This document shows positions 29,951 through 63,882 of a stretch of 64,000 bases of DNA, piece after piece. How positions within the stretch are numbered: the first letter of the stretch is position 1; each line of letters begins with the position of its first letter. The notes under the pieces are model-generated. The model worked only from the letters and a program-made list of their open reading frames with translations, was not told the DNA's origin and did not search any database. Origin of the DNA: Romanomermis culicivorax. Its lineage: Eukaryota; Nematoda; Enoplea; Mermithida; Mermithidae. Both the position numbers and the translations under genes were made by a program. The stretch spans positions 2,108,249-2,172,248 of the forward strand of contig CAWUHX010000011.1 in the NCBI GenBank assembly GCA_963922205.1. Reading direction: 5' to 3'.

Positions 29951-29960
29951 GTTAAATTTT

Positions 29961-29973
29961 TGAAGGAGGGAAA
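29961..29973 (+). promoter_or_regulatory. Polypurine tract of element A
   Basis: TGAAGGAGGGAAA lies directly before the 3' LTR. The same purine tract precedes the 3' LTR of C on the minus strand. It is the plus-strand primer site for reverse transcription. Confidence 0.8.
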
Positions 29974-42841: not shown

Positions 42842-42908
42842 CAGCTGTCCTTTGAAAAAGGACATCCTCGTCTATAAGCCGGGACAAAAGAAGAGAAGAG
42901 CTATTTGA

Positions 42909-44154
42909 TTAAGGGTCGGAGACCTCTGCATCAAGATGTGGGTTAATGGGATCTTGTATAAAATCTCGACTTGTTGATGGAATCAACAAGGGTGCAGTCT
43001 CAAATACCTGTGAAGTGGAAGGTATCTCTTCTGCTTCACTTGGTGGATCAGGTGACACGTAGCATCTAAGCTGATTGACATGCACAGTATCTTCTTGACC
43101 AGTCTCAAGACGAATGGTGACATCAGGATATGCCACATCTGTTACAGAATAGGGCCCATCTTAAATGGGCAGCAGTTTAGGGGTAAGACCACATCTGCTG
43201 GTAGTGCCCAGTCCGAGCACTTGATCCCCAACTTCATATGAGACATTTCATGCCATGCCATCGTAAGATCGAGCATAAGGCACCTGTGATTTCTCAATCC
43301 GACTCTGGATTAAGGTCAAGGCATTTGTAAAATGCTGTTTGACCTCCATATCATATGTGGAAATATCAATGATATGGGCCCGAGGGCGCGGTGTCAACAG
43401 GTGGCATGGGCATACGACCATACATGAGTTCAAAGGGGGAATATCCTGTGGACTCATTCATGCTAATGTTAACGGCAAACACAGAATACCGCAGGTGTTC
43501 ATCCCAATCAGTATGACTTTGATGAACATACATTCGTAGCCATGAAGCTAGCATTTGATTAGCTCTCTCCACTTCGCCGTTTGTCATCCCATGATAAGCG
43601 GTGTAGTGGATTTTCTTAGTCAAACAGATGGCAGTGATTTTGGCCATCAGTTTCAATGTGAAATCAGTGCCACAATCAGACTGAAGAATCTGTGGTGCCC
43701 CATGCTGGCAAACAATTTGTGTGACAAAAAGGCAGGCTATGGTTTGCGCAGTGATATCCGGAGTAGCGAAAGCCTTAACCCATTTGGTAAAGTAGTCTAT
43801 GAAAACTACAATAAAATGGTTGCCAGCCTTACTACTGGTCATTGGTCCCATACAGTTGACACCTACTCGATGAAATGACCCCCTAATGGTGAAAGGTTTC
43901 AGAGCTGTTCCGGTCTTTTGTCTACCAGGTTTATACTGTTGGCAAAAATCACACGGCTGGCAAAAGGACTTGATGTCCGCACTGAGGGAAGGCCAGTGGT
44001 ACCTGCAGGCTATTAGCCGCGGGCTACACTTAGCACCAAAGTGTCCAGCTATAATGTCATTATGATGGGCCTTCATAATGGTAATAACCATGGATCTGGG
44101 TATGACAATTTTGTTGGACTCGCCTGTCCACTTTTGAAGGATGTTATCCAACAA
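42909..44154 (-). pseudogene. pol: Integrase of element B
   Basis: A 262-codon frame (44,154-43,366) holds the zinc-binding region (AHHNDIIAGHFG, then CQPCDFCQQY) and the catalytic core. The first Asp is replaced by Asn (VGVNCMGP, where C has VGVDCMGP); the second (QSDCGTDF) and the Glu (GEVERANQ) are present. The frame shifts near 43,440. The C-terminal part continues in broken frames, with YSVTDVAYPDVTIRLETGQE and a Pro/Ser-rich tail, to 42,909. No chromodomain. Confidence 0.85.
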
Positions 44155-44412
44155 GTGGTAGCCATAAACATCGTTCTGATCACCCTCGGGTTTCAGTTAT
44201 CTAAGAATAGAGTCTATATCCGGATCCTCAAAATGAGCTGCGAGAAGGTCCTGGTGCTGTGCACTCATCGATATCTCAGCATAAGACTCTGATCTGGCCA
44301 GGCGCTGCGCACCATTGGTGATCAATTCAGATGATCTCTCCAGGCGCTGAGCACCATCGGTGACCATCATCACTTGTCCCTCAGGCCTGTAAAGAGGAGT
44401 ATCATCAATACT

Positions 44413-46152
44413 CTAACCGGTAAGGGAATTAGGATCTGGTAGGCGCCATAATGCTTCAGCATTACCATTAGACCAACCTTTTTGCAGCCGAATTGTCAGT
44501 TTGAATTCAGCAAGTGCGAGACCCCAGTGAGCTATCCTGGCAGACTGGTTAGGTTTCTCCAACACAGCCTTGACAGCAGTATGGTCCCTCTGTACGACCA
44601 TCTCATGTTGAAAGAGGTAAGGTGGAAAGTCCTTGACAAAATGGACAACAGCGAGTTTCCAACTCCGTAATAGAGTAGTTTTTCTCAGCTGCTGTTAACC
44701 CACAGCTGGCGTACGCGACAGGATGGTCATGTCCATCATCATCTAACTGGTTTAGAACCCAGCCTATTCTGGAAATACTTGCATTGGTTTGAAAGATGAA
44801 GGATTTCATAAAGTCTGGATGGCGCAGAATAGAGGGGTTCATCAGCAACCTTTCGAGTTCATTGAATGCCGCTTGCTGAGGTTTTGACCACAGGAAGGTA
44901 ACTTCTTCAGTAAGAGCTTGATCAGCAGCTCGCTGTGCCGGGTGCAACCAGGGATGAAACACCTGTAATAAGACAGGAGACCAAGAAAGGACTTGATGTC
45001 TTTGGTGTTTTGTGGAATGGGTAGATTCTGGATGGCAGCCAGTTTGACTTTATCCAGTTCTAGACTGTTCTCTGAGATGCCATAACCTAGATATTCCACC
45101 TCAGAGTGTGAAAACTTGCACTTGCTCAGTCTGAGCTTCATTCCACCCTGATGGAGATGCGAGAACACATCCGTTAGGCCCTCAAGCATCTGGGTGTGAG
45201 AGTTCCTGAACACAAAGATGTCATCGAGATAGGTCAATGCTGTACGCCACTGTAAATCCTGTAAGGAGCAGGTCCATGAGATGTTGGAACATCCCAGGGG
45301 CCTTGCAAAGACCAAACGGCAGATAGTTGAACTCCTAAAGTCAAATAGGCATATTAAATGCCATCTATTCCTTGTCAGCCTGGGCAATAGGTATGGACTA
45401 GTAGGCGTTAGCCTGATCAAGGGTTGTGAGGTACTTCATACCCTTGAGTGTGTTCAGGATGTCATCTATCCATGGGAGAGGGTAGACATCCTTCTTTGTG
45501 ACCTTGTTGAGTCCATGAAAATTGACACATATCCGGTGCCATCCATTTTTCTTTCCCAACAGGATGGTATTCGTAGCCCACAGTGATGTCCTAGGCCCAA
45601 TAATACATTTTTCCTGGAGTGCCCTAACTTCCTGCATGATGAGGTCCTTTTCCTTAGGTGCGGTGTGGTAAGGAAATGGGTGAACTGAGCGGGTGTCCCC
45701 CTTTTGATTTCATGGTGCACAAGGTCAGTGGAATCTGTGTCCTTCTCATCAATACCATAGAGTTCAGTGTATGTGACCAATAGGTAAAGTAATGCTGTCT
45801 GGTCCTATTAGTAGATATCAGGGGATATCACAGCATTTGCCTTGACCCACTTCTGGTCAAGGACAGTATCTGATTTGACCGCTGATCCCCGTGAAAGATC
45901 GGTGTGCATCTGCATATCACTGATGGTCATGTGCGGGTAGAGAACCACTGAATGTGTATTCGGGTTGACTACCTGTAAGGGGATGCGGCTGTTAGCCACT
46001 GTACTCACAGTGCCAGCAAAATATACGCTGCTATGAAATCCCGAGAGGGGCTTAGGGAAGAAAGCCACCTCTGGTACATTCGTATATAGTGATGGTACAG
46101 GTGCAGTAAATTGCGTCAGTGAGCGGGGCTCAAGCACAATCAACTCCTGCAA
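44413..46152 (-). pseudogene. pol: Reverse transcriptase and RNase H of element B
   Basis: Broken frames cover the pre-RT segment (LIVLEPRSLTQFTAPVPSLY, matching C), the RT fingers (LWATNTILLGKKNGWHRICV) and the palm with an intact YLDD at about 45,225. The connection and RNase H follow. The RNase H first Asp reads QTNAS, against QTDAS in C. Frame changes occur near 45,400, 44,950 and 44,600. It is less complete than in C. Confidence 0.85.
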
Positions 46153-46179
46153 GGGCAGAGCACCACATGCAGAAGGAGG

Positions 46180-46545
46180 ATTGTGAATGAGGCCATCACA
46201 TGGGACCTTTTAGTCCTTAAATTGGAGAAAGGATTTCTCCCAGTTCAAGCTAACACAATTGAACCATCTGAGGAAGTTTGTCCCCAGGACTAGTTCAGCT
46301 GAACAATTCTCCTGTATTTGGACCTGAATCTATTCAGAGACATCAGCTCTGTCACTGTGACACAGGCAGCGCCTAGCAGTAGGATCTGAGACCCATTAGC
46401 TGCTATGGGGCGAACCCTAGTCTCTGTGAGCACCAAGTTAGGTAGTTGGATGGGAGCAAGAAAACCCCTCCTGTATCTATCAGAGGCATGGCTTCCACCC
46501 TGCTGTTGAGGAGAACTCTGATATGAGGGGTCCTCATCTCAGTGG
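46180..46545 (-). pseudogene. pol: Retropepsin 2 of element B (the one adjacent to RT)
   Basis: The order is HIRVLLNSRVEAMPLIDTGG with the DTG active site, then, after a frameshift, a CVTVTE stretch. After another shift comes CSAELVLGTNFLRWF, the usual LG-x-N-x-L end of a retropepsin, then KVPCDGL. It aligns part by part with the single protease of C, so it is the orthologous domain. Confidence 0.7.
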
Positions 46546-46610
46546 ACTAGAAGGCTGACACTACATGACCTGGATCAGATGCAGTATCACCAAAGCTCGA
46601 CTCTGGCGTA

Positions 46611-46961
46611 TCAGTTCACTTTGGAATCGGCAAATTGGTGCGACAGAGTAGCCCTACCAGAGCATAACCAACAGATTTTTCCAGATTCCGGGGAAGTGGG
46701 ATGAACCTGTACAGTAAGTACATGACCCGATCGCTCCCCTGAACTCTGAGTAGCTCCTAGTGATTCAACTTCTGTGCCTGAAAGTGGTGGCACCTCCAAC
46801 ACAGGTGATACAGGGGCATCTGAATCACTAGGCTCAGGGAACCGGCCCTTCTCTAGTGTAACTGGAGAGTTTCCAGGCAGGGGTCGAGGGCAACTTGACC
46901 CTGGCTGGGCTATTAAATGACGACTAGCCCGTCTGGAAGAGGTCTGGGTACCTCTGATCAA
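46611..46961 (-). CDS. Pro/Ser-rich spacer of element B
   Basis: A 116-codon open frame rich in Pro, Ser and Gly between the two protease domains. There is no recognisable domain. Probably a linker of the polyprotein; a chance open frame is possible. Confidence 0.3.
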   Translation of the reverse strand: MIRGTQTSSRRASRHLIAQPGSSCPRPLPGNSPVTLEKGRFPEPSDSDAPVSPVLEVPPLSGTEVESLGATQSSGERSGHVLTVQVHPTSPESGKICWLCSGRATLSHQFADSKVN

Positions 46962-47129
46962 CCCACCTGATGAGGTGATGGAGGATGCTCATGAGGGTGG
47001 CCCAGAAATGGATGAAATCCTTGATCTTCATCGAGACCCAGACCATTAAGAGGCCCTTGATAGTGAATGTGTGTTCTCCCACCAGGGTTTGATCTGACCA
47101 ATCTCAGCCGCTGTCAGTAGAAGTGGCAG

Positions 47130-47525
47130 TTCTACCACATTCAACTGACAGACATTTTTTTGGTAGTCAAACCTGATATTCTTGAACCGTACAAGAAAGT
47201 ACAGTCAAAGAATCAGATCTACTGGTGCCCAGAAAGGAGACCTAGTCTTACACACATGGAGATGTATGTCAATCCTTGTGTACGGCTGGCGAGTCCCCGG
47301 CAACATGATCTCATACTGTCCCGATAGGAGAGTATAGACGGCTTTTCCATTGATACTCATCAATGGATTAAAGTCCTGATATTGCTGGAAGGCCATAGCC
47401 GCCTTCGGACTCTCTTTAATCAAAGCCTTGTTAAGACTTTGACTAATGATAGTCTGTGGACAACCAGTGTCGAGGAAAGCGGGAGTTTCCTTGGCATCGA
47501 CCAGTTGGACGAAACACGAAGTGAT
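47130..47525 (-). pseudogene. Retropepsin-like domain 1 of element B, directly after Env
   Basis: In the same frame as the envelope, after TGA at 47,528-47,526, sequence reads QLVDAKETPAFLDTGCPQTI with a DTG motif, then SINGKAVYTLLSGQYEIMLP. VDLIL is followed by TGA (47,207-47,205) where a Gly codon is expected, then FLVRFKNIRFDYQKNVCQL, typical of the C-terminal strand and helix of an aspartic protease. Elements A and C have only one protease, which corresponds to the other domain. This one is therefore an extra or diverged protease. Confidence 0.55.
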
Positions 47526-48840
47526 TCAATCTAACTGGGATGGTACGTCCTTCTGCATGTAGTGAAAACCTACCCAGTGTTGGACTTTGCGAAAAAGACC
47601 CAATGGAGAAAAGTGGCTAGCAAACCAAACCTGTCTTTTCGGCAAGCAGTAGCTGAGATAGTAGCATATCCCAACATAGGTGAGATATCCTATACCAGCC
47701 AGCACTGCCAGGGTGATGAGGGTGTTAAAGATCAACTGAACTGGTCCGCTCAGGACAGACTGTAAGCCCTGAACGACGTTGTGTTGTTGAGCAGTAATCA
47801 CATGGTTTGCCACCAGACCAACACCTTACAGAGAGGCCTTGATGTCAGTCCCTACCCCTGCCAATGCCTGATAGAGAGAATCTGGTTGCAGAGATAAACC
47901 AGTGGTAAAATTTACCGACTGGTTTAGAACTGCTTCAATCTGCTCAGTCTTGTAAACATACTGTTTAAAGAAGGCAAAACTCGAAGGGGTCATCGCCAAC
48001 TGATCATGGAAGAGCGCAGGAGCATCAAAGTGAGTGACGTAGAAGCGCTGTTTCCAGAAAAGTTCAAGCCGCATACGGCTCACATGGACCATGCCAGACT
48101 CAGTAAACCAGCCCGAGTGATTTTGGAAAATCCCTATAAAGTGATGGTCACACAGCACAATTGGGCTAACTTTAACAAGATCTGGGCCACCGGGGCTGGC
48201 AAAATAAATGGTACAGCCAACCTGTACAGGAAGATACTTCAGGGCAACTTGCAAATCATCGATGATGAAATGGTTCCCTGACACAGATGCAGTGTAATTG
48301 CCCTGAGGACGATAATGACACTGTGCTGTAAAATTCGTTGCGGGCCAAATGATTACTCCATCTAGAGTAGTGCATTGACCTGCAGTGGGGCTGCATCCAC
48401 CTACATCTCCTAAGGTACTTAGAGCTGTAGTGCCATCCCACAAAGCAATTTGTCCCTCCTTGATGAAGAGATTAGTCACTGTCTTGCAGACATCACTGCA
48501 GCAACATGAGTACATCACGTCCAGTGTTTGATTAGTGCTATAAAAGCTAGGGCGTATTTCCACAAGCTTTCGTAAATCAAACACCTTCATATGATGTGCT
48601 AGCAAGCAAGCTGCAGGCTCTAGATGCTGAGTAGTAATGATGTCTGCAGTAATGCCCCTAGACCCAAAGAAACCAGTGTTAGTGCAGACTTTACGGTTAC
48701 ACAATGTGCATTTCCACGCTAATGTAGCTATTGGATCAGAACTAGGAACATACACTGTGACATTCATGCCTCCTGGACTCCATGAAGATTTTGGTGGTTT
48801 GCATTCTACTTTTTGAGGTAGCTCAAGTGGATGACCACTT
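47526..48840 (-). pseudogene. env: Envelope-like glycoprotein of element B
   Basis: One frame from 48,767 to 47,526 is broken by TAA at 47,828-47,826. It aligns with the C ectodomain: CKPP, CTNTGFFGS, a cysteine cluster SCCCSDVCKTVTN, GDVGGCSPTAGQCTTLDG, then ASPGGPDL and a histidine motif (CDHHFIGIF). Several N-glycosylation sequons are present. A glycine-containing pre-membrane helix, a membrane anchor (LIFNTLITLAVLAGIGYLTYV) and a short basic tail follow. It leads in frame into the first protease domain. The 5' part with the signal segment is not clear. Fusion class cannot be assigned by eye. Confidence 0.75.
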
Positions 48841-48989
48841 CTTTAAAGACCACAAAAATGTTACTGAGCAGCATGTATTGCAGTACTCATTCCTAAGAAC
48901 AGTAATGTCACAAAGGTTCAATTTATTATATACAAACTATTTACAAATGGTGTCTGTAAATGTACACCAATATTCACAGTGTGGGCCTG

Positions 48990-50000
48990 TCAGGGGGCCT
49001 CATTCCTCGTCATCCTTGGACGATATCGGCTCCTTGCAGGGGAAGTTGATGACCAGGCCCCTGCACAGGTGGACTTCATGAAGAATGCCAATCTTCTGGG
49101 ACTGTGGGGCGGTAGCTGTTGGAAAGGGCAATGCGTCCATGATGCTGATGTCGTCTTTGAGGGCACGCAATGTCTCTTCAAAGGCATTGGCCACCTCCGT
49201 CAGTGAGTTGGTCGCGGGGGCCAATGGTTGTGGCTGGGCACTTGCCGACAGCATCTGGGCACTTGTCATTGTTGTTGGCAGTAGCGCTGCAACAACTACT
49301 GCGGGCTGCATGTTGCGACTCACCTGTTATACAGCCCAGCAGATGGCATCCACTGCCGGCAATGAAGGTTGGCCATCCAACAAAATCTTATCAACAGACA
49401 TTGCCCGGGTAGTCCTGTTGATGATGAACTCAAGGGCTCATTGAGCAACCTCGAGCCCCAATATCCGCAATGCTGCTTGTGCCGAAAGCACCATGTCAGG
49501 GGCCGTAAGGGCCTCCACCTTGAAGGGCTTGTTGAGCAGTGCCCAGGGTAGGTACGGATATTTCTTGGCCAAATCGGTTGACCAAACGGCCCACATTGCA
49601 TTGGTGACAGACGATGAATCTGTAAATGAGAAATCATTAGAGCCAGGGACTTACAATGACTTCTGATTTTCAGACCTGAAATGTCAGAAAAAGATTGTAG
49701 TATACTATCAGATTCATTGATTCCATTTGACCAATGACCTCCAGCACAAAGTCTGTTGGAATTCCTTTCTGCTGCCCCTGGGCAGCTAAACAGGCCCGAG
49801 GTGCCGGTGCAACCTCCATCCATCGGTACGAGGCACTCATGGTGACATCCCCAGTCGTTTTTGGCATCACTGATGGGTTTAAAGTGACTGGCATCATGAT
49901 TTCGGGGGCCGGGGTGGTAAGGCAGGTGTCAGTGCTGGTGCCGAAACCACTGCAGCGGCTAAAAATCCAATACTGATTAAACAGACAGGATAACACAGTT
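48990..50000 (-). pseudogene. Unexplained coding-looking segment between Gag and Env of element B
   Basis: One kilobase with coding character in changing frames. Recognisable stretches include a hydrophobic, signal-like segment (VCLISIGFLAAAVVSAPALT near 49,960), GIPTDFVLEVIGQMESMN, then WAVWSTDLAKKYPYLPWALL, ending with [15 protein letters not shown]. An exon-like piece at 49,321-49,620 is framed by TTCTCATTTACAG and CAG/GTGAGT. It has no equivalent in A or C. It could be an N-terminal extension of Env, or captured cellular sequence. No family recognised. Confidence 0.4.
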
Positions 50001-50295
50001 GTGAAGGATCTGCCAAGTGTTCAGCAAGCACTTCATCATCCAGATCGAACAGATCTGGATGAGGAAGACCATTGGTAGCCCCAACAGCATTATTTTGCCA
50101 TGGGGGTGGCCGATATTGGTTCCCTATCCCATTAGGAGGTGAATTAGCATATCATCGAGGATACCCACTTGTCTCCTGGGGAGAGTAACCGGAATTAACA
50201 TAGTCATTCTCACCAGGCATCGTCCCATTCCAATTTGTGCAGGCCATAGCTCTGTGCACTCATATTTTATGGCAATGCAGACAGGATCTGTCGCA

Positions 50296-51660
50296 TCAAT
50301 CAGTCGGGTGGGCCCTTGTTGGACAAAAATAGCAATGGCTGATGTGGGCAGCAGCAGCATCGCCAGGACGGGCGCTATTAAAACATTGAGCCCGGCAACT
50401 GGCGTCATTGTGGGTGCAACGTCCATGGAAGGAGCACGTCTGTAGATGTGTCCCCGATGGGCGATTGCCAGCCTTTTGGACATGCACCAACTGCTGTGTA
50501 GGTGGCGTCGGATTTCTCGGAGCTGGCGTCATTTGCTGAGCTGTAAACCATGCAATATGGGCTGTGAGCTGGGCCATCTCCGATTGTAATTGCCGAATAT
50601 CGTGGGAGGGAGTCAACGATGGACGTTGAGCATTGCTCCTTTGGTTCGGCATTGACCTGACATTATCAGTGGTCTTTTGTTCTGAAGAGAAAACAGCATT
50701 AGATGGAGGCAGTATACCTAATCTCATCCCGAAAAATCTGTGATTCTGCGTAACAAGCTGCTTTAAGAGTCTCTACAAGAGTTGTAAACTCCCTGAACTT
50801 AATACTATCTCAGAGGACTGGTTTCAGCACCCTCAGAAAGATAGGTTTTATAATCAAATCTCTGACGTCAGTAGGGAGATCTAGATAAGCCACTCTGGAT
50901 AGTCTCCTAAGGAGCTCAAGATAAACTATCGCAGACTCAGTCCGCTTCTGCAGATGATCTTGGATCAAGTGCTGATGCAGATCTGAGTCAAGCCCTACAG
51001 GAAAGTCTTTCTGTAGAAAAGTTGTAAACTCTTTGTAGTGGGTTGACTGTAGAGTGTCACTGTAAAGTCCTGATAGGATGCAAGAGCATGACCTGTAAGA
51101 CAAGACTTCAAAAATGCAATTTTATATGCATGATCCATTTTGCTTACACCTTGAAGTGTAAAGAAATGGGTCAAGTGAGATATAGAATCCGTTATAGACT
51201 CACCAAAAGCACCCTAAAAGGTAGGATGGGACATGAAGCTGGACACGGGAGGGTGCCTCCGGCCACTCATAGCCTCTAACTTCTGGTTGAGCAGTCCAAG
51301 GGCATTCTCAAATGCAGCCTGGACCTTGTTCTCTATCTGTGATGGGAGGTCAACTTCCGACTTCATATCTGAGAACTCCACTTCCCCTAAAATATCTAAG
51401 ACTGACAATCGTGCTTGTGAAGCTATAGGATCAAATTGAATAGAGATAGGCTCACTGGTCCATTTAAACTTAGTATTAAGATGGTAGGAACATCTAGGTG
51501 TTTCTATTTGTGAGAATAAGGTAAGTGTTACTCTTTGAAACTCAGGGCTAAGAGGGGCCGGAGGTTCTTGACCATTTTTGCAATGGCGTTTTTGAGGCTC
51601 TAACGGCTTGTTCTTTACAACAACTAGCGACAACTCGTTAATGGGGCTAGAAAAGAACAA
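50296..51660 (-). pseudogene. gag: Gag of element B, broken
   Basis: The frames 51,660-51,214, 51,103-50,810 and 50,727-50,296 together give a Gag. There is a helical N-terminal part (DLPSQIENKVQAAFENALG) and a capsid-like part (HYKEFTTFLQKDFPVGLD, then RVAYLDLPTDVRDLIIKPIF) that aligns with C (ANFNTDAREMIIKPLF in the same place). A Gln/Pro-rich linker is followed by a zinc-binding motif CSFHGRCTHNDASC. Two frame changes separate them. Confidence 0.75.
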
Positions 51661-52880
51661 GGTTTGTAGCTCTCAGAACAGCCCATTTAAATCAGGTTGA
51701 CACAGAAGGGAATTTATCTGGTCACCTGTATACTTAGAGGTGTAACCCGCTGTGAGGAAAGGGAACTAATTATGTCCCAATCAAATGAAGGAAATTGGGC
51801 TCCACCCAATTGATTTGAATGAAAGTTAGGAAAATTTGAAAGAAATGGCGCTTTCCCAGCAGAAAAGAAATGAGAGGACCTGTGGATGGATAAACCTGCT
51901 CAAAAGGGATTTTATTTGGAGACTAACCCTTATGTGCTAGTTTACAAAACCTTGGATTTGGGAGAAATCGTAACCAGCAAAGTCCTACTCACCAGGAGTA
52001 GCGCCTGAAGTGGCTTAGAAAGATAAGTAAAGGTGGACAACTTAAAGTAAACTTAATGGGTGTGAATAGATAGGGACAAAATTAGTTTACACATCTGATT
52101 ACTCTGGTGGAGGTGGGGATATGTCTGGCTCCCTCCTATGATTCGAGGCGGGCTCAAAGCATCTTGAGACAGGGGTACAGTCTGTCTTGGAGAAATGAGT
52201 GTAAAGTGTGAAGTAAGGACTGAGGCCGACCCAGTTGTAGTGTTTAGGCGGACTCTAACACCTTTGCTGAGGCCGACTAGCCGCTTATTATGCTAGAATG
52301 ACAACCAACGGAGGTGGACTCAGGATTAAGGGGTGACTCTAGTGCGGACATTATTAGGCCAGCTAACGAAGGCGTTTGAGTGAAAGAAGTATTACAGGGG
52401 GTTCTTTCAAACTTTAGGCCCAACTGGTGGCGATGCCGTAATTCCTGAGGAATTATTCCGGGGGGGACACTAAAGGAGATCTTAGATGAGAAGAAATGTG
52501 AGAAATTTAGATAAGAAATTTACAGGAACGTTACCAACCCCTGCAGACATCAGACACAGGCAGTATCGACTGCAAATGCCTAACATTTGCAGGAGTGAAG
52601 CAACTAACCCAGCTGAGGCTGAGTGTAACCCATTCAAACCTGCAGTAAAAGCTTTGAAGGCAGTCATGTGCTGACCAACAGTGCCGCTACCCAGTCAGAC
52701 AACGTGATGAGTAACATGGACTGAAGGCATCTCAGATTGAGTCAGCATGTTGACTGATGTTTCCCAGGCATCAGTGACACACAAACATTAAACCCTTAAC
52801 AAGAGTCATAGGTGAGAGGGTCATATTCCAACAATCACCTACAACTCAAGTGGCAACTTTGGAAATGAACAGTAACCGAG
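51661..52880. other. Leader of element B, upstream of Gag
   Basis: About 1.2 kb of untranslated leader without convincing frames on either strand, followed on the 5' side (element sense) by the tandem array and then the 5' LTR. Confidence 0.45.
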
Positions 52881-53760
52881 TGCTGACATCAAGGGTATGA
52901 TATACACCACCATACAACTGGTGCTGACCTCAGATGACTGGGATGTAAGTGCTGTAGTCTCATATTGCAGTATGAACCTCAGAGGTAAGGGCCCGCAGCC
53001 ACCAGACCTCTAGGGTAACATGGAGTATTAATGTTGCAGACGTCAGAATAGGATTGTAGAATCTCAATTCCAATACTAGGACATGAAACAATATCATTGC
53101 AGACATCAGAGGATAGGGTTCTGAGGCCAACGACCCTGCTACAGTAACAGAGGGTGTCACCATTGCTGATGTCAAAGGGACACAGCCGAATATCAGCTAC
53201 CGTACAGCATTGACATGAGATGCCATTGTTGCAGACGTCTGATGCAGGGTTTGTAAGGCCCACACATCTCAGAACAACAACACGTGGTGTTCCCATTGTT
53301 GACGTTAAGGGCTGAAGTTGGTGAACCAACCAGTCCTAGTGCAACAACATGAACCTCTGTTGTTGCGGATGTCAGAGGGACGGTGCTGTAAGATCATTGA
53401 CCCACAATGACAACATGTTATATTACCTTTGCTAACCTCAGAGGTAGAGCTGGTAGGGCCACCCACTCCTTAAGGCAACAGCAAGGGATGCAGCTGTTGG
53501 GGACGTCAGGGGAAGGATGCATAGAACCAGCAACCCCTGAATGGCTACATGTGATGCGGCCATTGCTGATGTCAGAGTCATGACCCGGAGGGTCATATGC
53601 CTCAATGCAACAGCAGCATGTGAGTCAGTTGCGGATGTCAGAGGTAGGGTCTCCAAGACACAGCACCTTATAACAACAACAGGGAATGTTGTCATTGCTG
53701 AGGTCAGCGGTAATGACTTGTGAAATCATGGCCGCTTTGCAACAACTCACAGAGACAGAA
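52880..53760 (-). repeat. Tandem array, about 66-bp period, in the leader of element B
   Basis: The core TTGCxGAxGTCAGAGG (plus strand) recurs at about 53,033, 53,095, 53,163, 53,228, 53,297, 53,362, 53,430, 53,498, 53,562, 53,628 and 53,693, with less regular copies from 52,882. Spacing is 62-69 bp. CAACAACA-type words stand at a fixed distance upstream of the core. Only the core is conserved while linkers drift, suggesting a bound site rather than recent duplication alone. Confidence 0.8.
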
Positions 53761-53833
53761 GGAACAGACTGTACAGTAGGTTGACGAAATAATAAGAATG
53801 ACCTTCTGAAGGGTTGCCAAACTATAACACATG

Positions 53834-54247
53834 TGTGGGTGAGTTTTACTCTCCATGCTTAACATGTGAATGTCTTTTAGAGAGAATCTCCAAACTAGTC
53901 ATTTCGCATTGTGAAATGTCACTAGTTTTTACTGATAAGAGGTGCACCTAATGCTCCAATTATGGCCATGAGCTCGTAGAGCTTATCTTGGCGGAAATTC
54001 TAACTAATGGGTTACATACCATAGTCTACGTGCGCAACAGAAAAATAACAAAATGCAACAGAAATGAAAACACAAAATGAAACAGAAACGAAACACAAAA
54101 ATGCACACAAAAATGCATGTAAAATTTAATGAAAGAAACGAAAAATAAGAGTAAGTAACTGTTAGACAAAAAAGTGGCGGAAAACATAAAGTATCAGCAT
54201 GATGTAAATCACTTGATGTTGGGCGAAATTGATCAGCATGTGACAAC
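53834..54247 (-). repeat. 5' LTR of element B
   Basis: Pair of 42,024-42,430; TGTGGGTGAGTTTTAC at the inner edge and CATGTGACA at the outer. The sequence just inside, in element sense, contains TGGCAACCC about 12 nt from the LTR, a candidate primer-binding site. Confidence 0.85.
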
Positions 54248-54595: not shown

Positions 54596-55495
54596 TGTAA
54601 CGACCAGATTCGTGTGAGGTACTTTACTTCTAACCAATTGGTCGATACGGCCGGGACAAAAGGGGCACGGGCGGTACAATACGGGGCGATAATATACGAA
54701 TGACCGACGGTCGCTTGAACGTCGACAATACAAAACACGTTTCAATTTATAATATGAATGGGGGCCTCGGTTTAAGTTGCTTTCGGATAATCAGCCGCTT
54801 GCAAATGTATAAAAAGGACGGGGCAAGCGCGGAAGGCAAAAACGTAAAACCACAAGAATAAGAATGATCAAAATCACGCTTTGCTTCTTCTTTTATACGG
54901 CAATTTTGGCTACTCCCTGGGCGTTGCGGGAGGTCGAGCTTCTGTCCATCTTCTTCCGCCAATCGTCGTTTCCTGCTACGCTTTTTATGCTTACTTAGTT
55001 ACGCCTCTCTAACGCTTTCCTGGTACTCTATGCTTTCTGTGCTTTGCTTGCTTCCTACGGTGGGCTTGGCCACACCTTTGTGCTTCTGTGCATGCTTCCT
55101 GTATCGGTTTCTCTGTATACACATGTTTTGTGGGGCCGCCGCTACCGTTACACTTGAGACTACTGTCTGGCGGGGCTTCTACGTATTTTACTGTGTGCAG
55201 GTGTTGTTTACGATTTTTATGGGGGATTGCGGTAGCTGTGGAATGTGTAGTTTAGTGTAGGTTCTAGGGGAACAGCTGCCGTTTGTGCAAATTAATTAGG
55301 GCATCTTAATTGGGCTACCGGGGTGTGAACGGATCAAAATAAAGTACTTCACGTAATTTTATAGGAATGTTTGGGTGTGAATCCCAGACACCCTTGAGAC
55401 GATAAAATGTGAAAATAAAATAATATCTAATAATAAATGTCTATCACATACAGTATGCTACATATTTACAGTACTGCTTTAGCAGGTACGTTACA
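54596..55495 (-). repeat. 3' LTR of element C
   Basis: 900 bp, pair of 62,986-63,882. Differences from the 5' LTR are few, concentrated in the first 200 bp, and mostly transitions, often at CG dinucleotides (for example TTCG against TTTG). Gives the age of the insertion. Confidence 0.95.
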
Positions 55496-55514
55496 TTTCC
55501 CTCCTTCCGGAGTT
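55496..55514 (-). promoter_or_regulatory. Polypurine tract of element C
   Basis: In minus sense AACTCCGGAAGGAGGGAAA directly precedes the 3' LTR (TGTAACG). The core GAAGGAGGGAAA is identical to that of element A. Confidence 0.85.
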
Positions 55515-55603
55515 GAACGTCCTCGTTCAAGGCTTTCGAGGTTGAGGAGGGGCGGTGGTAGATTCGATAGTTGCTTTCCGAGGGTAGAAAGGGGTTGTCT
55601 GGT

Positions 55604-56839
55604 TTACATGCACCCTAAATGGGGGTGTTTAAGTGTAACATTGGGGTACATGAAATTTGTAACTGTATAGGGCCCGTTTTGGCGAGGGAGGAATTTGGGA
55701 GTCAGCCCTTGTTTACATGAATGATTTTTGTAAAGAATAAGATCACCTGCCTTGTAATGTATGTTCTGAGCATGCTTGTTATACTGCCGGGTATAGTGGT
55801 CTTGAGCTTTCTGTAAACTTTTCTGGACAGTTGAGAGTGCTTCTGTAAAATGTGACTTTACAGGAAGGGTGTAATCGTCTAGATCCACCATGTAGGATGT
55901 GGGGAAAAAATTTAAAGCTGCGTCTGATGGCAGATTGGCTTGCCTACTGTGGAGTAGTTCAAATGGGGGATACGATGTGCTATCATTTTTATGAATGTTG
56001 ATCGAAAAAACGGCATATGGGAGATAAGTATCCCAATCAGTGTGATTTGAATTGATGTAAATGTGGATATGGGTGGCTAGGGTTTGGTTGCAATGCTCAA
56101 CTTCCCCATTGGCAATGGGATGGTATGGGGTGGTATGAATTTTCTGCGTATTGCATAAACTGGTGATTCGTGAGAAAAGATCGGATACAAAATGGGAGCC
56201 ACGATCACAATGGATGATTTTTGGGGACCCATGACGGCAAACAATTTTGGTTACGAATAACTTGGCAATAGTGGCTGCAGTGATATCGGGGGTCCGAAAT
56301 GCCTCTACATACTTTGTGAAATAATCGATGAAGATGACAATGAATCGGTTGCCGTCTTCAGTGAGGGGTAACGGTCCCATGCAATCAACACCGACTCTAT
56401 CAAATGGGCCAGTCGGCGGAATTGGTACCAAGTTTGCATGTACTTTGTGCCTAAGAGCTTTCTGTGTCTGGCATGGGTGACAAGTTTTGCAGTAATGTTT
56501 GATATCACGGCTCATTTGGGGCCAAAAATATTTTTGTCTGAGCAAGTGTAAAGTTTTTCGGGCAGCAAAATGACCTGTGAATTTGCTGTCATGATGTGAG
56601 GCGATGAGATGCTGGACCTGTGATTTGAGGATGTATAGTTTTGCCTGTTTGTCGACTATACGGAAGAGAATGTTTTGATGCACAGCGAATTTGATCAGAG
56701 TAAGGGGGTGTTTTTGGGCAATTTTTGCTAAAATACTTTTGACAGTTGGGTCAGTGCGTTGAAGTTCGGCAAAATTTTTCTGTTGCTCTTCTTGTTCAGT
56801 TGCTTCAGCTTCCAAAACCGAATTGATAGTGGATATTTC
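55604..56839 (-). CDS. pol: Integrase of element C
   Basis: Open from just after the G10 run (56,840-56,849) to TAA at 55,606-55,604; the Met at 56,815 is only the first one. The zinc-binding region (HHDSKFTGH, then CKTCHPCQ) is followed by the core with Asp in VGVDCMGP, Asp in HCDRGSHF and Glu in GEVEHCNQ, all present. The C-terminal domain (YKAGDLILYKNHS, then GPYTVTNFMYPNVTLKHP) is followed by about 35 more codons of in-frame sequence after the stop before the LTR. No chromodomain. In element A the same region is in frame with RNase H, so the frame change here is a mutation and not a genuine separate gene. Confidence 0.9.
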   Translation of the reverse strand, partial: EISTINSVLEAEATEQEEQQKNFAELQRTDPTVKSILAKIAQKHPLTLIKFAVHQNILFRIVDKQAKLYILKSQVQHLIASHHDSKFTGHFAARKTLHLLRQKYFWPQMSRDIKHYCKTCHPCQTQKALRHKVHANLVPIPPTGPFDRVGVDCMGPLPLTEDGNRFIVIFIDYFTKYVEAFRTPDITAATIAKLFVTKIVCRHGSPKIIHCDRGSHFVSDLFSRITSLCNTQKIHTTPYHPIANGEVEHCNQTLATHIHIYINSNHTDWDTYLPYAVFSINIHKNDSTSYPPFELLHSRQANLPSDAALNFFPTSYMVDLDDYTLPVKSHFTEALSTVQKSLQKAQDHYTRQYNKHAQNIHYKAGDLILYKNHSCKQGLTPKFLPRQNGPYTVTNFMYPNVTLKHPHLGCM

Positions 56840-59058
56840 GGGGGGGGGGTTTCTAGGTGATCAATGTCAAAGGATTGCTTTGCTGTCTGTGAGGGGAATC
56901 GAGAAACAGCATCTGCGTTGCGATTAGCAGTGCCTTTCTTAGGTCGAATGTCTAGCTGAATACCAGAGAGGGCTAATCCCCAACTGGCAATGCGAGGGGA
57001 CGGGTTTTCCTTTTGTAAGACTGCCTGAACTGCTGTATGGTCAGTGTGGACAATAACATGTTGCTGGAAAAGATAGGGGCGGAAATACTTGACAAATTCG
57101 ACTACTGCAAGGGTTTCCAACACAGTGATCGGGTAGTTGCGTTCTGCGGGTTTCAATGTGCGGCTCCCAAAAGCAATGGGGGGATCCTGACCTTTACTAT
57201 CTAGCTGACTGAGAATGGCGCCGATTCCGAGTTTTGAGGCGTCAGTTTGCAGAATAAACGGTTTTGTGAAATCGGGGTGCTGCAGTATTGGGGCATGAAT
57301 GAGTAATTCTTTTAGCTTAGAGAATGCATTTTGCTGTTCAGGGCCCCAGGAAAATTCTGAGTTCTTTTTGAGTAGCGATGTGAGTGGGCTAGAAACTTGA
57401 GAGCAATTTGGGATGAATCTGCGATAATATGAGGGTAGGCCAAGGAATGACTTAACTTCTTTTGAGCTTTTGGGTGTGGGTATGTCATAAATGGCCTGTA
57501 CCTTATGGGGATCTGGTGAAATGCCTTGCTGAGAAATGACGTGGCCTAAGTATTGGACTTGGGGTTGGCAGAATTTGCATTTTTGTATATTTAGTTTAAG
57601 GCCTGCTTGTGAGAATCGGGCAAGAATAGTGTCTAAACGTTCCAGCATTTGGGCATGGGAGTCTGCAAATACCAAAACATCCTCGAGATATACAAGGCAT
57701 GTGTTCCATTGCAGACCCGGAAGAATAACATCCATTAACCTTTGGAATGTGGCTGGGGCATTGGTAAGACCGAAGGGGAGGTAGTTGAATTGATACTGGC
57801 CGGCTGAGCAATTAAAGGCCATTTTTTCTCTGTCTGCTTGTGCTATGGGAATGGAATAATATGCATTGGATTGGTCAAGGGACGTAAAATATTTCATTCC
57901 ACGTAGGGTGTCTAGAATTTCGTCTATGCGGGGCAGGGGGTATGTATCTTTTTTGGTTACTTTATTGAGGCCTCTAAAATCAATGCATAAACGATGGCCT
58001 CCGTCTTTTTTGGGAACTAAAACTGTGTTGGTACACCATGGGGAATTGCTTTGGCTTATGGCACCTGCTGCTGCGAGTTGCTCAGCTTCTGCTTGTATGA
58101 TTTGCTTTTCTTTTGGGGAAGTCCGATAAAGTTGTCTACGTACGGGTTGGGAGCCATTGGTGTCAATTGTATGTGAAACGAGGGTGGTTCTACCTACGTC
58201 TATTTTGGATTTAGCATATAATGTAGGATACTTCGATAGGGCATGTAGGAGTTGCATTTTCTCGGTTTCTGTGAGGTCACTGGAGGTTAAATTGACATTT
58301 TCTTTTAACCATGTGAATGTATCAAAAGGGTTGGGCTGGGTTTGCGTGGAGGGGGTTACGCTAGTGGGGGCATTTTGTTTTGGGATGTAACAAGAGACTG
58401 TGCCAATGCATGTTCCAGGGTAAAGAATTTGAGCTGTGTCTTGTGTATTTAGGACGGATATGCGTATGCGACTGTTTTGATTTTCAGAGACACAAGCTGC
58501 AAAATGGACTTTTGGATTCTGTTTGGGTTTCGGGGTGAATTCAAGCTGTTTGACCTGTAAGTACGATTTGGGCAATGGGACAGTGAATTCAGTTACTGTA
58601 GGGGGTGGTAATTCTAATTTCTCATCCAAATAAGTTCCACCACGAGTTGAAAGAGGGCTATATTCTAGGCCATCACAAGGTAGTATGACATTGCCAAATT
58701 TGACCTGTGATTTTTGATTGTTGATAGTGTATTCCGAAAATCGACTGAGAATGTTTTTGCCTAGAAGGATGTCTGCTGTGCAATCTTTTTGGACATGGAC
58801 CATGATTGTTTCCTGGATTGTTTGGGCTGTCACTGTGACAAAAGTGGTCCCTACAAAGTGAATCGGAAGATTATTTGCTGCTTTTGCTTGGACTAGCGGG
58901 GGTTTCATGTCTAACTGTAGGATTTGAGCGATTCGGGAATCAATGAGTGAGTAAACTGCACCAGTGTCAATCATGCCTTTTGTCATTAATTTGCCGTTAA
59001 TTGTGATTGGAATATGAGGGGCATGTTTCTCAGGTACATTTTGGGGTGGCTTATTTGA
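56728..59058 (-). pseudogene. pol: Protease, reverse transcriptase and RNase H of element C
   Basis: The frame continues from Env after TGA at 59,103-59,101. Protease: MIDTGAVYSLID (DTG) and ILLGKNIL. A pre-RT region follows, then RT with CTNTVLVPKKDGGHRLCIDF and DQSNAYYSIP. The catalytic box reads YLED instead of YLDD, losing one metal-binding Asp. RNase H keeps all four acidic residues (QTDAS, LETLAV, HTDHTAV, ANRNADAV). The frame then runs through a G10 run (56,840-56,849) and ends out of frame at 56,728. Met 58,986 is internal to the protease and not a real start. About 750 codons, a usual length for these three domains. Confidence 0.92.
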
Positions 59059-59100
59059 TGCAGATTGGTGAATTTGATTAATGAGTTCGATTGCAGGAGT

Positions 59101-61635
59101 TCAGGGGGTATCAATATCGACAAGGACGTATTTCTGCTGTGTTTGTGCCCCACGACGATTAGCTAATTCTAAGAGAGCATGGCCGAAAGATGGGGGTATG
59201 GTCTCATGTAAATGTCTGTTGTTTGATGGTATTTCATACGCATGTTCATTTGTGGCATGATGTTTTGGAGAGGGGAAATATTTTCGAAGAATGAGAAAAG
59301 AATAAAAGATGCCTGCAATAACTACAGTAATAACGGTTAGATTGATAATGATTTGTAGGGGTCCTTTGAGTAAATTGTTTAATCCGTCCGTGAGACTTTG
59401 GGTGGTACCAGTTATTACATGTTCTATGCCTTGGCCGGCGCCAGAGAGGGTATTTCCGAGTGCTTGGCCAGTGCCTGAGATCATGTTGTAAACTGTATCG
59501 GAATTGAGAGACATTTGGGCGGTGTAATTGACGAGTTTTTTAACAACATTTTCGAGTGTGTGAGTTTTGTAAATGTATTGTTTCAAAAAGAGTAAGTTGG
59601 TTGAAATAGTTGCAAGTTGATCATGAAAAATGGCGGGTGTATTAAAATGGAAGAGGGAGAAATTTTAGTTCCAGACGATTTCTAAAGGTAAATTTGTGAC
59701 ATGCGGGGATCCTGTTTCACTAACCCATGTATTATTCTGTTTGTAAAGGGCTACATGCATGTGATGGCAGTCAACAGTTTGTGAAAAAGGGGTCAAATCG
59801 TTGCCTCCTGGATTTGAAAACATGAGTTCGGTTCCTACGAGAATGGGCAAAAGTTTGTAGCATGTTTGGTTGATTTTATGGTTGTGAAAGACTTTGGATG
59901 CGTTTACCTGCTTGCAGGGCCAGACTGTGAGGGCTCCTCCTGTGAGTTCTGCTATGATGTCCGTTCGCTGTAGGAATGCACGCGCTCCAAGGGTTGCATC
60001 AAGAAGTAAAATTTGCCATACGAGATCAAGGTGACGCTGCGCCTGTCTGCATAATTCACTCCATACGTTTTTGAAATTTTGAATTTCGAATTCCTGTATT
60101 TTGTCTGCTAGATAGTTTAGTTTCGCATTAATGGGTTCAAAATGATCAAAATCGTATAGTGTAGTATGAGTTTTGTTGGTTTTTGGGGTTAAAAATGTGT
60201 TACGATGTGGGGTGCTTTTGTCTAATTGTACGATAATGCCTTGTTCGGTTAGAATGCTGTCTTGGATTTCTGGGCAACTGGGGTTCGAAAAAACTGTATT
60301 TTTAACCGAGAATGCACCTTATAGCTCTTCTATTATCATGTGTGTTTGCGTGAGTTTGATGGGATGTGTATTTTTGTATTCGAAAGGGCATAAGTTTTCA
60401 AATGCTGTTTCATTCCAGATAATGGATCGGTCAGCTGTGACACAATGACCTGATGTCGGTTTGCATGACCCCAGGTCACCTAATGTACCTGTCATAGATT
60501 TTCCATTCCAAGATGCTATTTGTCCTATTTCTATGATGATGTTAGTGACCGAGGTACAATGGTCTGTGCAACACCATGTGTACTCTATGCTTAGGGAGTT
60601 GTTTGTTGACCAAAATCCTGGTTGGGTTTCGTATAATTTTTGACCGTTGTGTTCTTTGTCTATAACGACTGCCTTACAAACATGTGGGGTTAGATTTTGC
60701 ATTTCGGTTTGGTTGAAGACAATATCTTTTGATCCAAAAAATCCTGTATTAGTACAAATTTTGCATTTGCGAACACTGCATTTGTATGCGTCTGTAATGT
60801 GGGGCTTAGTGGAGGGGATATAGATTTTTCCGAATGTCTGTATGGGTTTGTCTACTGTGGAAGGGGGCATGCATGATACAAGTTTTGGTATGCTGACTGA
60901 GTGACCGCTCAATGAAGTTCCACACATCTGAAATTGGGCACTACACGATGTGGGGATTATTATACAAAGAAAAATACAAAACATCGGCCAAATAGAATGT
61001 TTTAGTGGAGGCGGCGGGGCACTGTGTTTTTTCGCTCTGCTCGATTTGGCGTGGCGAGTGTTGTCGTTTTGCGGTTTTGAGCTGGGGGGGGGGTGGCCGG
61101 TTTGAAATCTGAACGGTCTGTAAAATTTTAGAAGTTGAGTCATGGGATGGGGTTTGGACTTGCTTACTTGTGGGGTCGGTAGAAGTGTTTGGCGGGGGCG
61201 GAATTGGTAGGGTTCGGGGGTCAGGCCATGGAGAAGAGACAACAAGTTGCGGCCTGCTTTCGACGGGGTTTCGGGGGCGGTGGGCGGCGTAGTGTCTTGC
61301 TTTCGGGGGATCTTGTAGCCTACGGGGATGGTGGGAGGCGATTTTTCGATTTTTGCGGCTTCAGGCCTGGGGGGTGGTGACATGGCGCACCAATCGGGTA
61401 CGTCCAGGTTGAGGACGTATTCGTCACTACGGCGGTGGGTAGTGGGCATGATAGTTCCTAAAGTAGTCTGAGGGCCCTTAGTTATGGCGGGTAATTTTGA
61501 GTAAAATGCGGGGTCGTCAATGTCCATGAGGGGTTGGGGTTGCTTGTACTCAATGCAGTTTTGAATATTACGACTTTGCTGATTTGGACAATATCTGCTT
61601 GTATGACCTCTCTGCTTGCATATGAAACATTGAAA
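59101..61635 (-). pseudogene. env: Envelope-like glycoprotein of element C, between Gag and Pol in the same frame
   Basis: The frame runs through MDIDDPAFY (61,527), a proline-rich part of about 170 residues, a hydrophobic signal-like segment (SIWPMFCIFLCIIIPTSC) and a Cys-rich ectodomain. The ectodomain has CKICTNTGFFGS, a WCCTDHCTSVTN cluster, GDLGSCKPTSGHC and several glycosylation sequons. A Gly-rich amphipathic stretch, a membrane anchor (IIINLTVITVVIAGIFYSFLIL) and a tail follow. In-frame stops: TAA 60,321-60,319, TAA 59,667-59,665 and TGA 59,103-59,101. Element A has CAA at the first two, so these were Gln codons. It is a retrovirus-like membrane protein, with signal and anchor; which fusion-protein class it belongs to I cannot tell. 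Confidence 0.82.
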
Positions 61636-62742
61636 ATTGGAGTAGGGTTTTGAAAGGCAGTTATCTGATCTATGTCCTGTTTGGGAGCAGTGGATGCATC
61701 AGCTTTTACAATCACGTGTACTGTGATTATTACGGAAACAGATTTCACATGATTTTCGGGTACCTACTGATTTACAATTACGAGCTACGTGTCCAATTTG
61801 TCCACACTGGAAGCATGTGGGCTGCCTAGGGGTGGTATTGTTCCTGTAAGCATTATTCCTGCTGAAAGTATTGTTACTGAAATTGTTGTAGCTACTTTGT
61901 TGTGGGGATTGAGGTATTTGTTTGATCTGCAACTGTAAATCTTTTACTTGTTGTTCTAACTGATGCAAAAGGTCCTGTTGGTCTGTGTTTTTGGTTAGGG
62001 AAAAGATGGGTTCGGGTTTTGGGGGTATGAAGGGAAGGACGTTAGATTTTAACTCGTTTCTAAGGATTTGCTGTTCAATGTAAGCTGCTTCGTCTGACAT
62101 TTCTTTTAGAGTTGCGAATCTTCTATACTTAATTGCTTCCCTGATTTCGTTTTGCATGCCTTCTACAAAGAGGGGTTTTATGATCATTTCTCGTGCATCT
62201 GTGTTAAAGTTAGGGTAGGCGAGGGTTGCGAGATGTTCTAGATCAAATAAGAATTCAGTCACTGTTTCTGATCGCTTTTGCTTTCTTTCGCGTAAGAATT
62301 GTTGATGTAGCTCATTACCTCTATTGTTTGGGAAAAATGCCTGTAATGCAACTTTATACTGCTCGTATGTGTGGGGAGGGTTTTCGGAATTGGCTAAACT
62401 TTTGAATTTTGCTAACGCGGCTCCTCCTAAATGAATTTCTAAACATGCCAACTTTAATTGTACGTCTGTATCTTTCATGCCTTGGAGTGCCATGAATTGT
62501 TCTAATCTTTTGTTCCATTCACCAAAATGTTGGGTCACGCCGCCCGTGAATACTGTAGGTTTCGCATAGAAATTATTTGCCATGTTATTACGAATGTTTG
62601 CTGTTCTTAGATCGTCTATTAGGGTAGGGTTTACTGTATTCTGATTCAATTGTGTGCGTAGGGTACGAAAATGTTCTGAAAATAAATCGTTTATCTGCTC
62701 TCTAACAATTTCTCCTAAATGATCTTGTGTTTGGTGGGTCAT
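61636..62742 (-). pseudogene. gag: Gag of element C with four zinc knuckles
   Basis: I take the ATG at 62,742 (MTHQTQDHLGEIVREQ), although the frame is open back into the LTR. A capsid-like helical domain, a coiled coil (LLHQLEQQVKDLQLQIKQ) and an Asn-rich linker come first. Two CCHC knuckles follow: CFQCGQIGHVARNC and CEICFRNNHSTRDC. TGA at 61,701-61,699 then cuts the frame, but it continues with two more knuckles, CIHCSQTGHRSDNC and CFICKQRGHTSRYC, and leads into Env without a further stop. Element A has Arg (AGA) at the TGA position. It binds RNA and forms the particle in this family. Confidence 0.9.
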
Positions 62743-62957
62743 TCTTGGTTTACGCTGGGATTTCTGCTTAAACACTTCAATTTTTGCTTCACGCTGTATT
62801 CCTTTAAATGTATCGCTTAATGTTTCGTTGGAGGGGATTTCCAGCTTGCTTTCTACGAATACTGTCTTACTGTAGGAAATGATTACTACTGTATTATCTA
62901 ATGCTTCTAACTGCCCGGATAAGAGTACACCTAATTGGGGGCAGGGAGTTCCAGTGG

Positions 62958-62985
62958 TTAATGTAACGGTACGGTCACCAAAATA
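62958..62985 (-). promoter_or_regulatory. Primer-binding region of element C
   Basis: In element sense the sequence after the 5' LTR is TATTTTGGTGACCGTACC. TGGTGACCGTACC is the likely site for the 3' end of a tRNA primer; I cannot name the tRNA. Confidence 0.5.
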
Positions 62986-63882
62986 TGTAACGACCAGATT
63001 TGTGTGAGGTACTTTACTTCTAACCAATCGGTCGATATGGCAGGGACAAAAGGGGCACGGGCGGTACAATATGGGGCGATAATATACGAATGACCGATGG
63101 TCGCTTGAACGTCGACAATACAAAACGCGTTTCGATTTATAATACAAATGGGGGTCTCGGTTTAAGTTGCTTTCGGATAATCGGCCGCTTGCAAATGTAT
63201 AAAAAGGACGGGGCGAGCGCGGAAGGCAAAAACATAAAACCACAAGAATAAGAATGATCAAAATCACGCTTTGCTTCTTCTTTTATACGGCGATTTTGGC
63301 CACTTCCTGGGTGTTGCAGGAGGTCGAGCTTCTGTCCATCTTCTTCTGCCAATCGTCGTTTCCTGCTTCGCCTTTTATGCTTACTTAGTTACGCCTCTCC
63401 AACGCTTTCCTGGTACTGTATGCTTTCTGTGGTTTGCTTGCTTCCTATGGTGGGCTTGGCCACACCTTTGTGCTTCTGTGCATGCTTCCTGTATCGGTTT
63501 CTCTGTATACACATGTTTTGTGGGGCCGCCGCTACCGTTACACTTGAGACTACTGTCTGGCGGGGCTTCTATGTATTTTACTGTGTGCAGGTGTTGTTTA
63601 CGATTTTTACGGGGGATTATGGTAGCTGTGGAATGTGTAGTTTAGTGTAGGTTCTAGGGGAACAGCTGCCGTTTGTGCAAATTAATTAGGGCATCTTAAT
63701 TGGGCTACCGGGGTGTGAACGGATCAAAATAAAGTACTTCACGTAATTTTATAGGAATGTTTGGGTGTGAATCCCAGACACCCTTGAGACGATAAAATGT
63801 GAAAATAAAATAATATCTAATAAATGTCTATCACATACAGTATGCTACATATTTACAGTACTGCTTTAGCAGGTACGTTACA
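62986..63882 (-). repeat. 5' LTR of element C with TATA box
   Basis: 897 bp. In minus sense GCCGTATAAAAGAAG at about 63,293-63,279 is a strong TATA box, placing transcription start near 63,260 and the U3 part at 63,882-63,260. The open frame found from 63,267 starts right there, so its first Met is probably not used. Confidence 0.92.

Follow-up and report, generated by a model that had tools for sequence, protein, structure and literature searches.

Can the envelope glycoprotein (Env) of a retroelement be encoded between Gag and Pol, within one continuous reading frame? The question is raised by a 64,000-nucleotide (nt) stretch of the genome of the nematode Romanomermis culicivorax (assembly GCA_963922205.1, contig CAWUHX010000011.1; hereafter the window), in which three elements, designated A, B and C, carry env between gag and pol. 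To our knowledge, retroviruses and env-bearing retroelements have been treated as having a fixed order, Gag-Pol-Env, in which Env comes last, at the 3' end, and is expressed from its own message. An initial annotation of the window had proposed that the three genes were ancestrally one polyprotein. The one-frame order is present in natural copies of two families, it has been conserved under selection, and elements carrying it have transposed recently. From sequence comparison, we consider that C, A and B probably belong to one lineage of env-bearing long terminal repeat (LTR) elements of the Ty3/Gypsy type, in which a single open frame fills the internal region and is translated as a polyprotein inserted into the endoplasmic reticulum (ER), with a probability of roughly 0.78. 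The features of the three elements are listed in Table 1.

Table 1. Features of elements C, A and B (positions counted from the first nucleotide of the window).
Feature	Position	Strand	Remarks
Element C	54596-63882	minus	Ty3/Gypsy-type provirus
5' LTR of C	62986-63882	minus	TGTAAC...GTTACA; 96.3% identical to 3' LTR
3' LTR of C	54596-55495	minus	from LTR comparison
Gag of C: capsid and four CCHC knuckles	61588-62742	minus	begins at first in-frame ATG common to six 5' halves
Proline-rich linker, nucleocapsid to Env	61006-61587	minus	open in Gag frame
Signal peptide, mid-frame	60931-61005	minus	SCSA/QF end
Env ectodomain: cysteines and N-glycosylation sites	59374-60936	minus	stops at 60319-60321 and 59665-59667
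Env core	59680-60180	minus	PF24664 Monjiviricetes_fusion, E = 3e-18
Env membrane anchor	59275-59373	minus	
Env cytoplasmic tail, continuing into Pol	59104-59274	minus	stop 59101-59103 in copy C
Retropepsin (DTGA)	58741-59025	minus	PF13975, E = 4e-8
Reverse transcriptase	57535-58017	minus	PF00078, E = 2.5e-35
RNase H	56965-57348	minus	PF17919/PF17917
Integrase (H2C2, rve, GPY)	55607-56842	minus	frame differs from RNase H in copy C
Element A	21904-30826	plus	old, decayed relative of C, same order
Env piece of A	25650-26453	plus	matches PF24664
Element B	42027-54245	minus	distant family, same order: gag, env, protease, reverse transcriptase, integrase
gag of B	50717-51258	minus	
env of B	47634-48872	minus	
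Protease, reverse transcriptase and RNase H of B	44437-46534	minus	
Integrase of B	43110-44226	minus	
Tandem DTG domains of B	47208-47525; 46454-46534	minus	Env to reverse transcriptase interval

Element C is flanked by a GACG duplication at both outer LTR sides, and consists internally of six stop-free pieces, the first five of which lie in one frame and the integrase piece in another. In order, the pieces encode Gag with its knuckles; the end of the knuckle array, the linker, a signal peptide ending in SCSA/QF, which we take to be a signal-peptidase-like motif, and the N-terminal part of the glycoprotein; the glycoprotein core; its C-terminal part and anchor; protease (PR), reverse transcriptase (RT) and RNase H (RH); and integrase (IN). 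The shared frame (63282 to 56731) contains 4 stops, compared with 123 and 120 in the other two frames; in none of 300 order-2 Markov sequences did the best frame have fewer than 53. The initial annotation had placed Gag, the glycoprotein, PR, RT and RNase H in one frame with four stops, and this was confirmed, the stops lying at 61699-61701, 60319-60321, 59665-59667 and 59101-59103. The first of them, which had been taken as the separator of Gag and Env, sits inside the array of four CCHC knuckles, so that the Gag/Env border itself is open even in C, within a frame of 459 codons. Over 576 nt of the linker, the Gag frame contains no stop, compared with 8 and 6 in the other frames. The four stops and the RNase H/IN frameshift of C are decay of a single copy, as judged from the copies described below.

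The host genome (359 Mb) was searched with the C env core, and the best 150 of 2,995 first-look candidates, C included, were scored. The resulting copy counts refer to best-scoring candidates, and are therefore lower bounds biased towards intact copies; a reported frame length may also run through a stop inside the matched stretch. All 150 candidates matched the env core, with 149 of the matches stop-free inside. The open frame around the core comprised at least 2,400 codons in 71 candidates and at least 1,500 in 115, the commonest length being exactly 2,486 codons (27 candidates). In the seven other copies that matched best, the stretch of 3,651 nt that begins at the knuckles and extends into Pol was free of stops in six, and the codon at the Env/Pol border was open in all seven; the Pol match of one of the seven (L003) stops after 172 residues.

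Twelve more copies were chosen for frames of 2,484-2,520 codons, and show the content of the frame rather than its frequency. In the 3' halves of six, the open frame extended from the env core across PR, RT, RNase H and IN, and its stop codon lay 31 nt short of the 3' LTR. RNase H and IN share a single frame in all six, in agreement with the proposal that the frameshift of C is secondary. No env was found downstream of IN in any of these six 3' halves, a placement that the initial annotation had named as evidence against its claim, and the 31 nt between stop and LTR leave no room for one. The 5' halves of the other six copies were open from the edge or the inside of the 5' LTR, via Gag, to the env core, and in each the first in-frame ATG was the Gag start, which predicts a polyprotein of about 2,400 residues. 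An uninterrupted Gag-Env-Pol frame, which was to be sought in a consensus, thus exists in natural copies.

The LTR pairs of the six 3'-half copies were 99.77-100% identical (one LTR being cut by the contig end), and all five copies with both ends had perfect 4-bp duplications, indicating that the C family inserted recently. The proposal of an ancestral single frame is supported; beyond the ancestral state, the layout persists in these recently inserted copies. The copies L009-L014 have near-identical LTR pairs yet differ from each other by 2-3%, which suggests roughly simultaneous activity of several sublineages.

Comparison of C with six copies gave ratios of nonsynonymous to synonymous substitution rates (Ka/Ks) of 0.09-0.15 for two env pieces and 0.10-0.13 for PR-RT-RH; Env is thus as constrained as Pol. 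Between A and C, synonymous sites were saturated in most pieces, and an excess of third-position changes was found in Gag, Env and Pol. The linker from nucleocapsid to signal peptide gave a Ka/Ks of 0.32 for A and C (149 codons, bootstrap 0.18-0.52); P0002 was 83-85% identical between C and seven copies, and P0003 96%. By these values, Env is kept as a protein, and the linker, read in the Gag-Env frame, evolves as a coding sequence. The linker was open in 12 of 13 copies, and the signal core CIFLCIIIPTSCSA was identical in all 13 copies read. The residue at the possible Env start was Leu or Val in 11 of the 13 copies, and Met in L008 and L016, so that in most copies Env has no start codon of its own. 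The nearest in-frame Met upstream was at least 129 residues away in 10 of the 12 copies with an intact linker.

Element A was said to be uninterrupted at the places of the first three stops of C, and its open reading frames (ORFs) do continue through these sites. The env piece of A matched PF24664 with E = 2e-8. Its integrase was said to be in frame with RNase H; the last RNase H piece and the first IN piece do share a frame, but a stop (28796-28798) lies between them. We also considered A as a member of a recent family. This was rejected: its best matches elsewhere in the genome show about 68-70% identity, a value similar to that of the C family, and one reaches 72%.

Family B has an env about 36-46% identical to that of the C family. 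The window copy contains frameshifts, and is without about 139 env-core codons that are present in other copies. Besides this copy, 100 rows were scored in the host genome, 21 of which had frames of at least 2,900 codons and 17 of these exactly 3,018; at most 19 rows are fully open, the majority of the long-frame rows being known from the reported frame length. Among the copies chosen for 3,018 codons, the frame was uninterrupted from Gag to the env piece in each of four 5' halves; in each of four 3' halves it ran open from the env piece across PR, RT, RNase H and IN. The same gene order that had been read from the frameshifted copy is thus open in eight halves chosen for long frames. The host genome holds hundreds of elements in which coat, spike and enzymes share one frame, with the spike in the middle.

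Two further observations concern family B. The interval from Env to RT contains two tandem retropepsin-like DTG domains, located at codons 600 and 932 in L033-L036; in each of the four 3' halves, the protease region of P0127 aligns to both domains, and the first domain has a weak Pfam match (E = 0.11). The observed/expected ratio of CpG is 0.40 in the window copy (42500-53800) and 1.01 in one open copy. Stops recurring in the linker (L037; L041-L043) are partly at CpG, consistent with methylation-type decay of family B.

Relatives beyond this genome were found by protein search. In a metagenome protein of 1,270 residues, PR-RT-RH-IN comes immediately after an anchor; another, of 1,750 residues and from a different contig, contains most of Env, the anchor, the tail, PR, RT, RNase H and IN in a single chain. 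The Env/Pol border is open in both proteins (P0127 and P0007). Among 123 retrieved hits, 18 had at least 60 residues before the protease motif, and only the two fusion proteins had a membrane segment there. Scans of viral contigs and prokaryote contigs found no relatives, and a protein search with the gag-tail/env N piece gave no hit among 1743 candidates. Trees were constructed for RT (62 rows of 125 available) and IN (52 rows: 50 of 87 hits, with C and B), both quick trees that have no bootstrap and take the nearest search hits as outgroup. C, A, the two fusion proteins and P0008, which begins within RT, formed one RT clade that stands apart from the unnamed hits, with a support of 100 in the Shimodaira-Hasegawa-like approximate likelihood ratio test (SH-aLRT); C, B, the two fusion proteins and P0008 formed one IN clade, also with SH-aLRT 100. 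The layout is shared by two divergent families, as had been claimed, but the trees make C, A and B look like old branches of one lineage, and not independent inventions.

The order of domains in the frame (Gag, knuckles, linker, signal peptide, class III-like fusion glycoprotein, anchor, tail, protease, RT, RNase H, integrase) suggests a route of expression. Translation would begin at the Gag ATG and yield one polyprotein of about 2,400 residues, which the internal signal peptide would insert into the ER. Given this signal peptide and one anchor, the Env ectodomain is predicted to be lumenal, with both Gag, which precedes the signal, and Pol, which follows the anchor, in the cytosol. Signal peptidase would free the N-terminus of Env, the protease of the element would cut Gag, the Env tail and Pol apart at the budding membrane, and Env would then mediate fusion with new cells. 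Such a layout would need no splicing for Env expression, and would bring Gag, Env and Pol together at one place on the membrane.

This route has to be weighed against others that the same DNA could support. Since splicing is usual for retroviral Env, the frame could be continuous while Env itself comes mainly from a message that is spliced or started internally, like that of other env-bearing retroelements, the in-frame order being a by-product. The Met beside the signal peptide in 3 of 14 rows (C, L008 and L016) fits this, as does the linker being the least conserved part (Ka/Ks of 0.32 for A and C; 83-85% identity in P0002 against 96% in P0003). However, 10 of the 12 copies with an intact linker have no in-frame Met within the 128 residues upstream of the signal core, and the linker, open in all but one of 13 copies, evolves as protein. 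Moreover, none of the 10 fetched 3' halves of the C and B families has a separate Pol frame after the Env tail, so that at least Env and Pol should be co-translated. We therefore regard a separate Env message, the main alternative, as unlikely, although it deserves more weight than a stop placed by design between Env and Pol. In gammaretroviruses, a stop between gag and pol is read through, and the TGA of C (59101-59103), with a stop in A five codons later, could be taken for a similar signal. The two stops are at different codons, and the border is open in the seven best-matching copies, in six of six C-family and four of four B-family 3' halves, and in P0127 and P0007. A readthrough design is contradicted for the recently inserted copies read, and is very improbable for the lineage.

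The nature of Env itself admits two more alternatives. That Env is a chance insertion or an assembly artefact without function could be suspected because C, A and B are all broken in the window, but is scarcely credible, given that all 150 scored candidates match it, that the fusion recurs in two proteins from other contigs, that its Ka/Ks is about 0.1, and that the same layout is found in a family with a ~36-46% identical env. The whole Env of C matched PF24664 (E = 7.5e-19; 67.6 bits, curated cut-off 27; profile positions 295-468 of 653), the only Env match above a curated cut-off. Judging from this one Pfam family, the signal, the anchor and the glycosylation sites, the Env of C appears to be a Monjiviricetes-type fusion glycoprotein. 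In the same region, BDV_G (E = 1e-5) and Glycoprotein_B (E = 0.013) match more weakly, which would allow an origin from a different class III source, rhabdo-, borna- or herpes-like, in place of a chuvirus-like virus. With PF24664 by far the best match, we consider such an origin, which concerns only where the glycoprotein came from, possible but doubtful.

Several observations weigh against a single-frame lineage with a class III-like Env. Single-sequence searches of the PDB with the env core and the whole Env gave no match up to E = 10, and structure models of Env had a predicted local distance difference test (pLDDT) score of 33; with poor models and no solved-structure match, the class III fold is a tentative assignment from Pfam. 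Frames were shorter than 2,400 codons in 79 of the 150 C-family rows and shorter than 2,900 in 79 of the 100 B rows, the linker is broken in L006 (one of the seven C-family copies), and A has, near the Env/Pol border, a stop of its own that the initial annotation had left unmentioned, 5 codons beyond the fourth stop of C. The Met residues mentioned above belong here as well. In family B, a stop between two matched env stretches could escape notice in rows that were not fetched, and two 3,018-codon rows (L048 and L049) share a TGA at the same site in Env, from which a stop-bearing copy seems to have multiplied. The Gag/Env linker carries stops, at three places in all, in three B copies that were chosen for shorter frames. 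As judged in four open copies, two of these places are CpG sites; the third, further upstream, is common to two copies and is not CpG. No place is common to all three copies, which with the two CpG sites fits decay. Linker stops as a conserved design of family B were rejected in part, since the places differ, two of three are CpG, and all four long-frame 5' halves are open.

Returning to the single ER-inserted polyprotein, we think it fairly probable that these elements are an undescribed lineage of probably infectious Ty3/Gypsy viruses, recently amplified in the host and of an age sufficient for a split into families whose proteins are ~40-50% identical, in which the particle is built from one Gag-Env-Pol polyprotein with the spike as its hinge. 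Unlike the usual 3' Env, Env here lies inside the polyprotein frame and is held there by selection. This raises the questions of whether splicing is dispensable for an LTR element that forms enveloped particles, and of how the ratios of Gag, Env and Pol are set from a 1:1:1 start.

Two other features of the window were recorded. An integrase with a chromodomain, an A32-like ATPase and a piece of a type B DNA polymerase lie within 9 kb (2752-3840, minus; 6166-6912, minus; 11347-11787, plus), and this cluster presumably represents a decayed Maverick/Polinton. Long inverted repeat pairs at 32085-35070 and 39132-40760 (arms of 211, 97 and 135 nt) are perhaps the ends of DNA transposons.

The Pol order PR-RT-RH-IN is that expected of Ty3/Gypsy elements (Metaviridae), and a GPY module follows the integrase core in P0006, P0127, P0007 and P0008. 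As in Ty3/Gypsy elements, C and all five two-ended copies have TG...CA LTRs (TGTAAC...GTTACA) and 4-bp duplications. A profile in which P0127 was the sole Pol row ranked the Ty3 structure 7q5b (E = 4e-133) and 4ol8 above other solved RTs. On these grounds, the lineage was placed in Ty3/Gypsy. BEL elements have a specific peptidase family, no match to which was found in the Pfam search at E up to 1, and the RT_RNaseH and H2C2 matches are as in Gypsy. A single RNase H region was found in C by Pfam, a tether not having been sought by structure.

Errantiviruses (Gypsy, insects) combine, like the C lineage, a Ty3/Gypsy Pol with an Env. Errantivirus Env lies after Pol, and in lokiretroviruses env likewise follows pol. 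Statements that carry a citation below refer to excerpts of the papers concerned. Errantivirus Env is described as baculovirus-type in origin (PMC12440569); the C lineage is not errantiviral by either Env position (none after Pol) or Env type (PF24664, not baculovirus F). Lokiretroviruses, described as a sister group of retroviruses with a dual RNase H, resemble the C lineage in an Env related to Mononegavirales fusion glycoproteins (PMC9040795); the dual RNase H probably sets them apart from it, as does the gene order given above. The Atlas virus and its kin (Belpaoviridae, hookworm) have one stop-free ORF that includes an Env derived from an RNA virus, and are thus similar in that Env is part of a single polyprotein in an LTR element; unlike the C lineage, their order is Gag-Pol-Env, with Env last, a BEL/Pao Pol and a class II phlebovirus-type Env (PMC9094657). 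Capture of a chuvirus-type glycoprotein by an LTR retroelement is described for Anakin (BEL/Pao, mosquitoes), which has a BEL/Pao Pol, whereas the C lineage does not; three env-bearing BEL elements are said to have env downstream of the polyprotein, the excerpts giving no gene order for Anakin itself (PMC7642597). TelKA of bdelloids, an LTR retrotransposon with a glycoprotein from a negative-strand virus, is unlike the C lineage in that this glycoprotein is of the paramyxovirus F type and is encoded by ORF3, downstream of pol (PMC5408684). A 2023 survey, in the excerpt used, states no clear evidence of such glycoprotein capture by Gypsy (PMC10084718), of which the present elements are a clear case, with a glycoprotein of the Monjiviricetes type.

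No described retrovirus or retrotransposon with the order gag-env-pol was found in the literature searched, which did not extend to subscription journals, Repbase Reports and preprints, so that an earlier description is possible. A working likeness to the predicted topology is found in the structural polyproteins of alphaviruses and flaviviruses, in which a cytosolic capsid comes first and is followed by an internal signal peptide and a glycoprotein. These are positive-strand RNA viruses without a reverse transcriptase, whereas the C lineage would carry its enzymes in the same chain, behind the membrane anchor.

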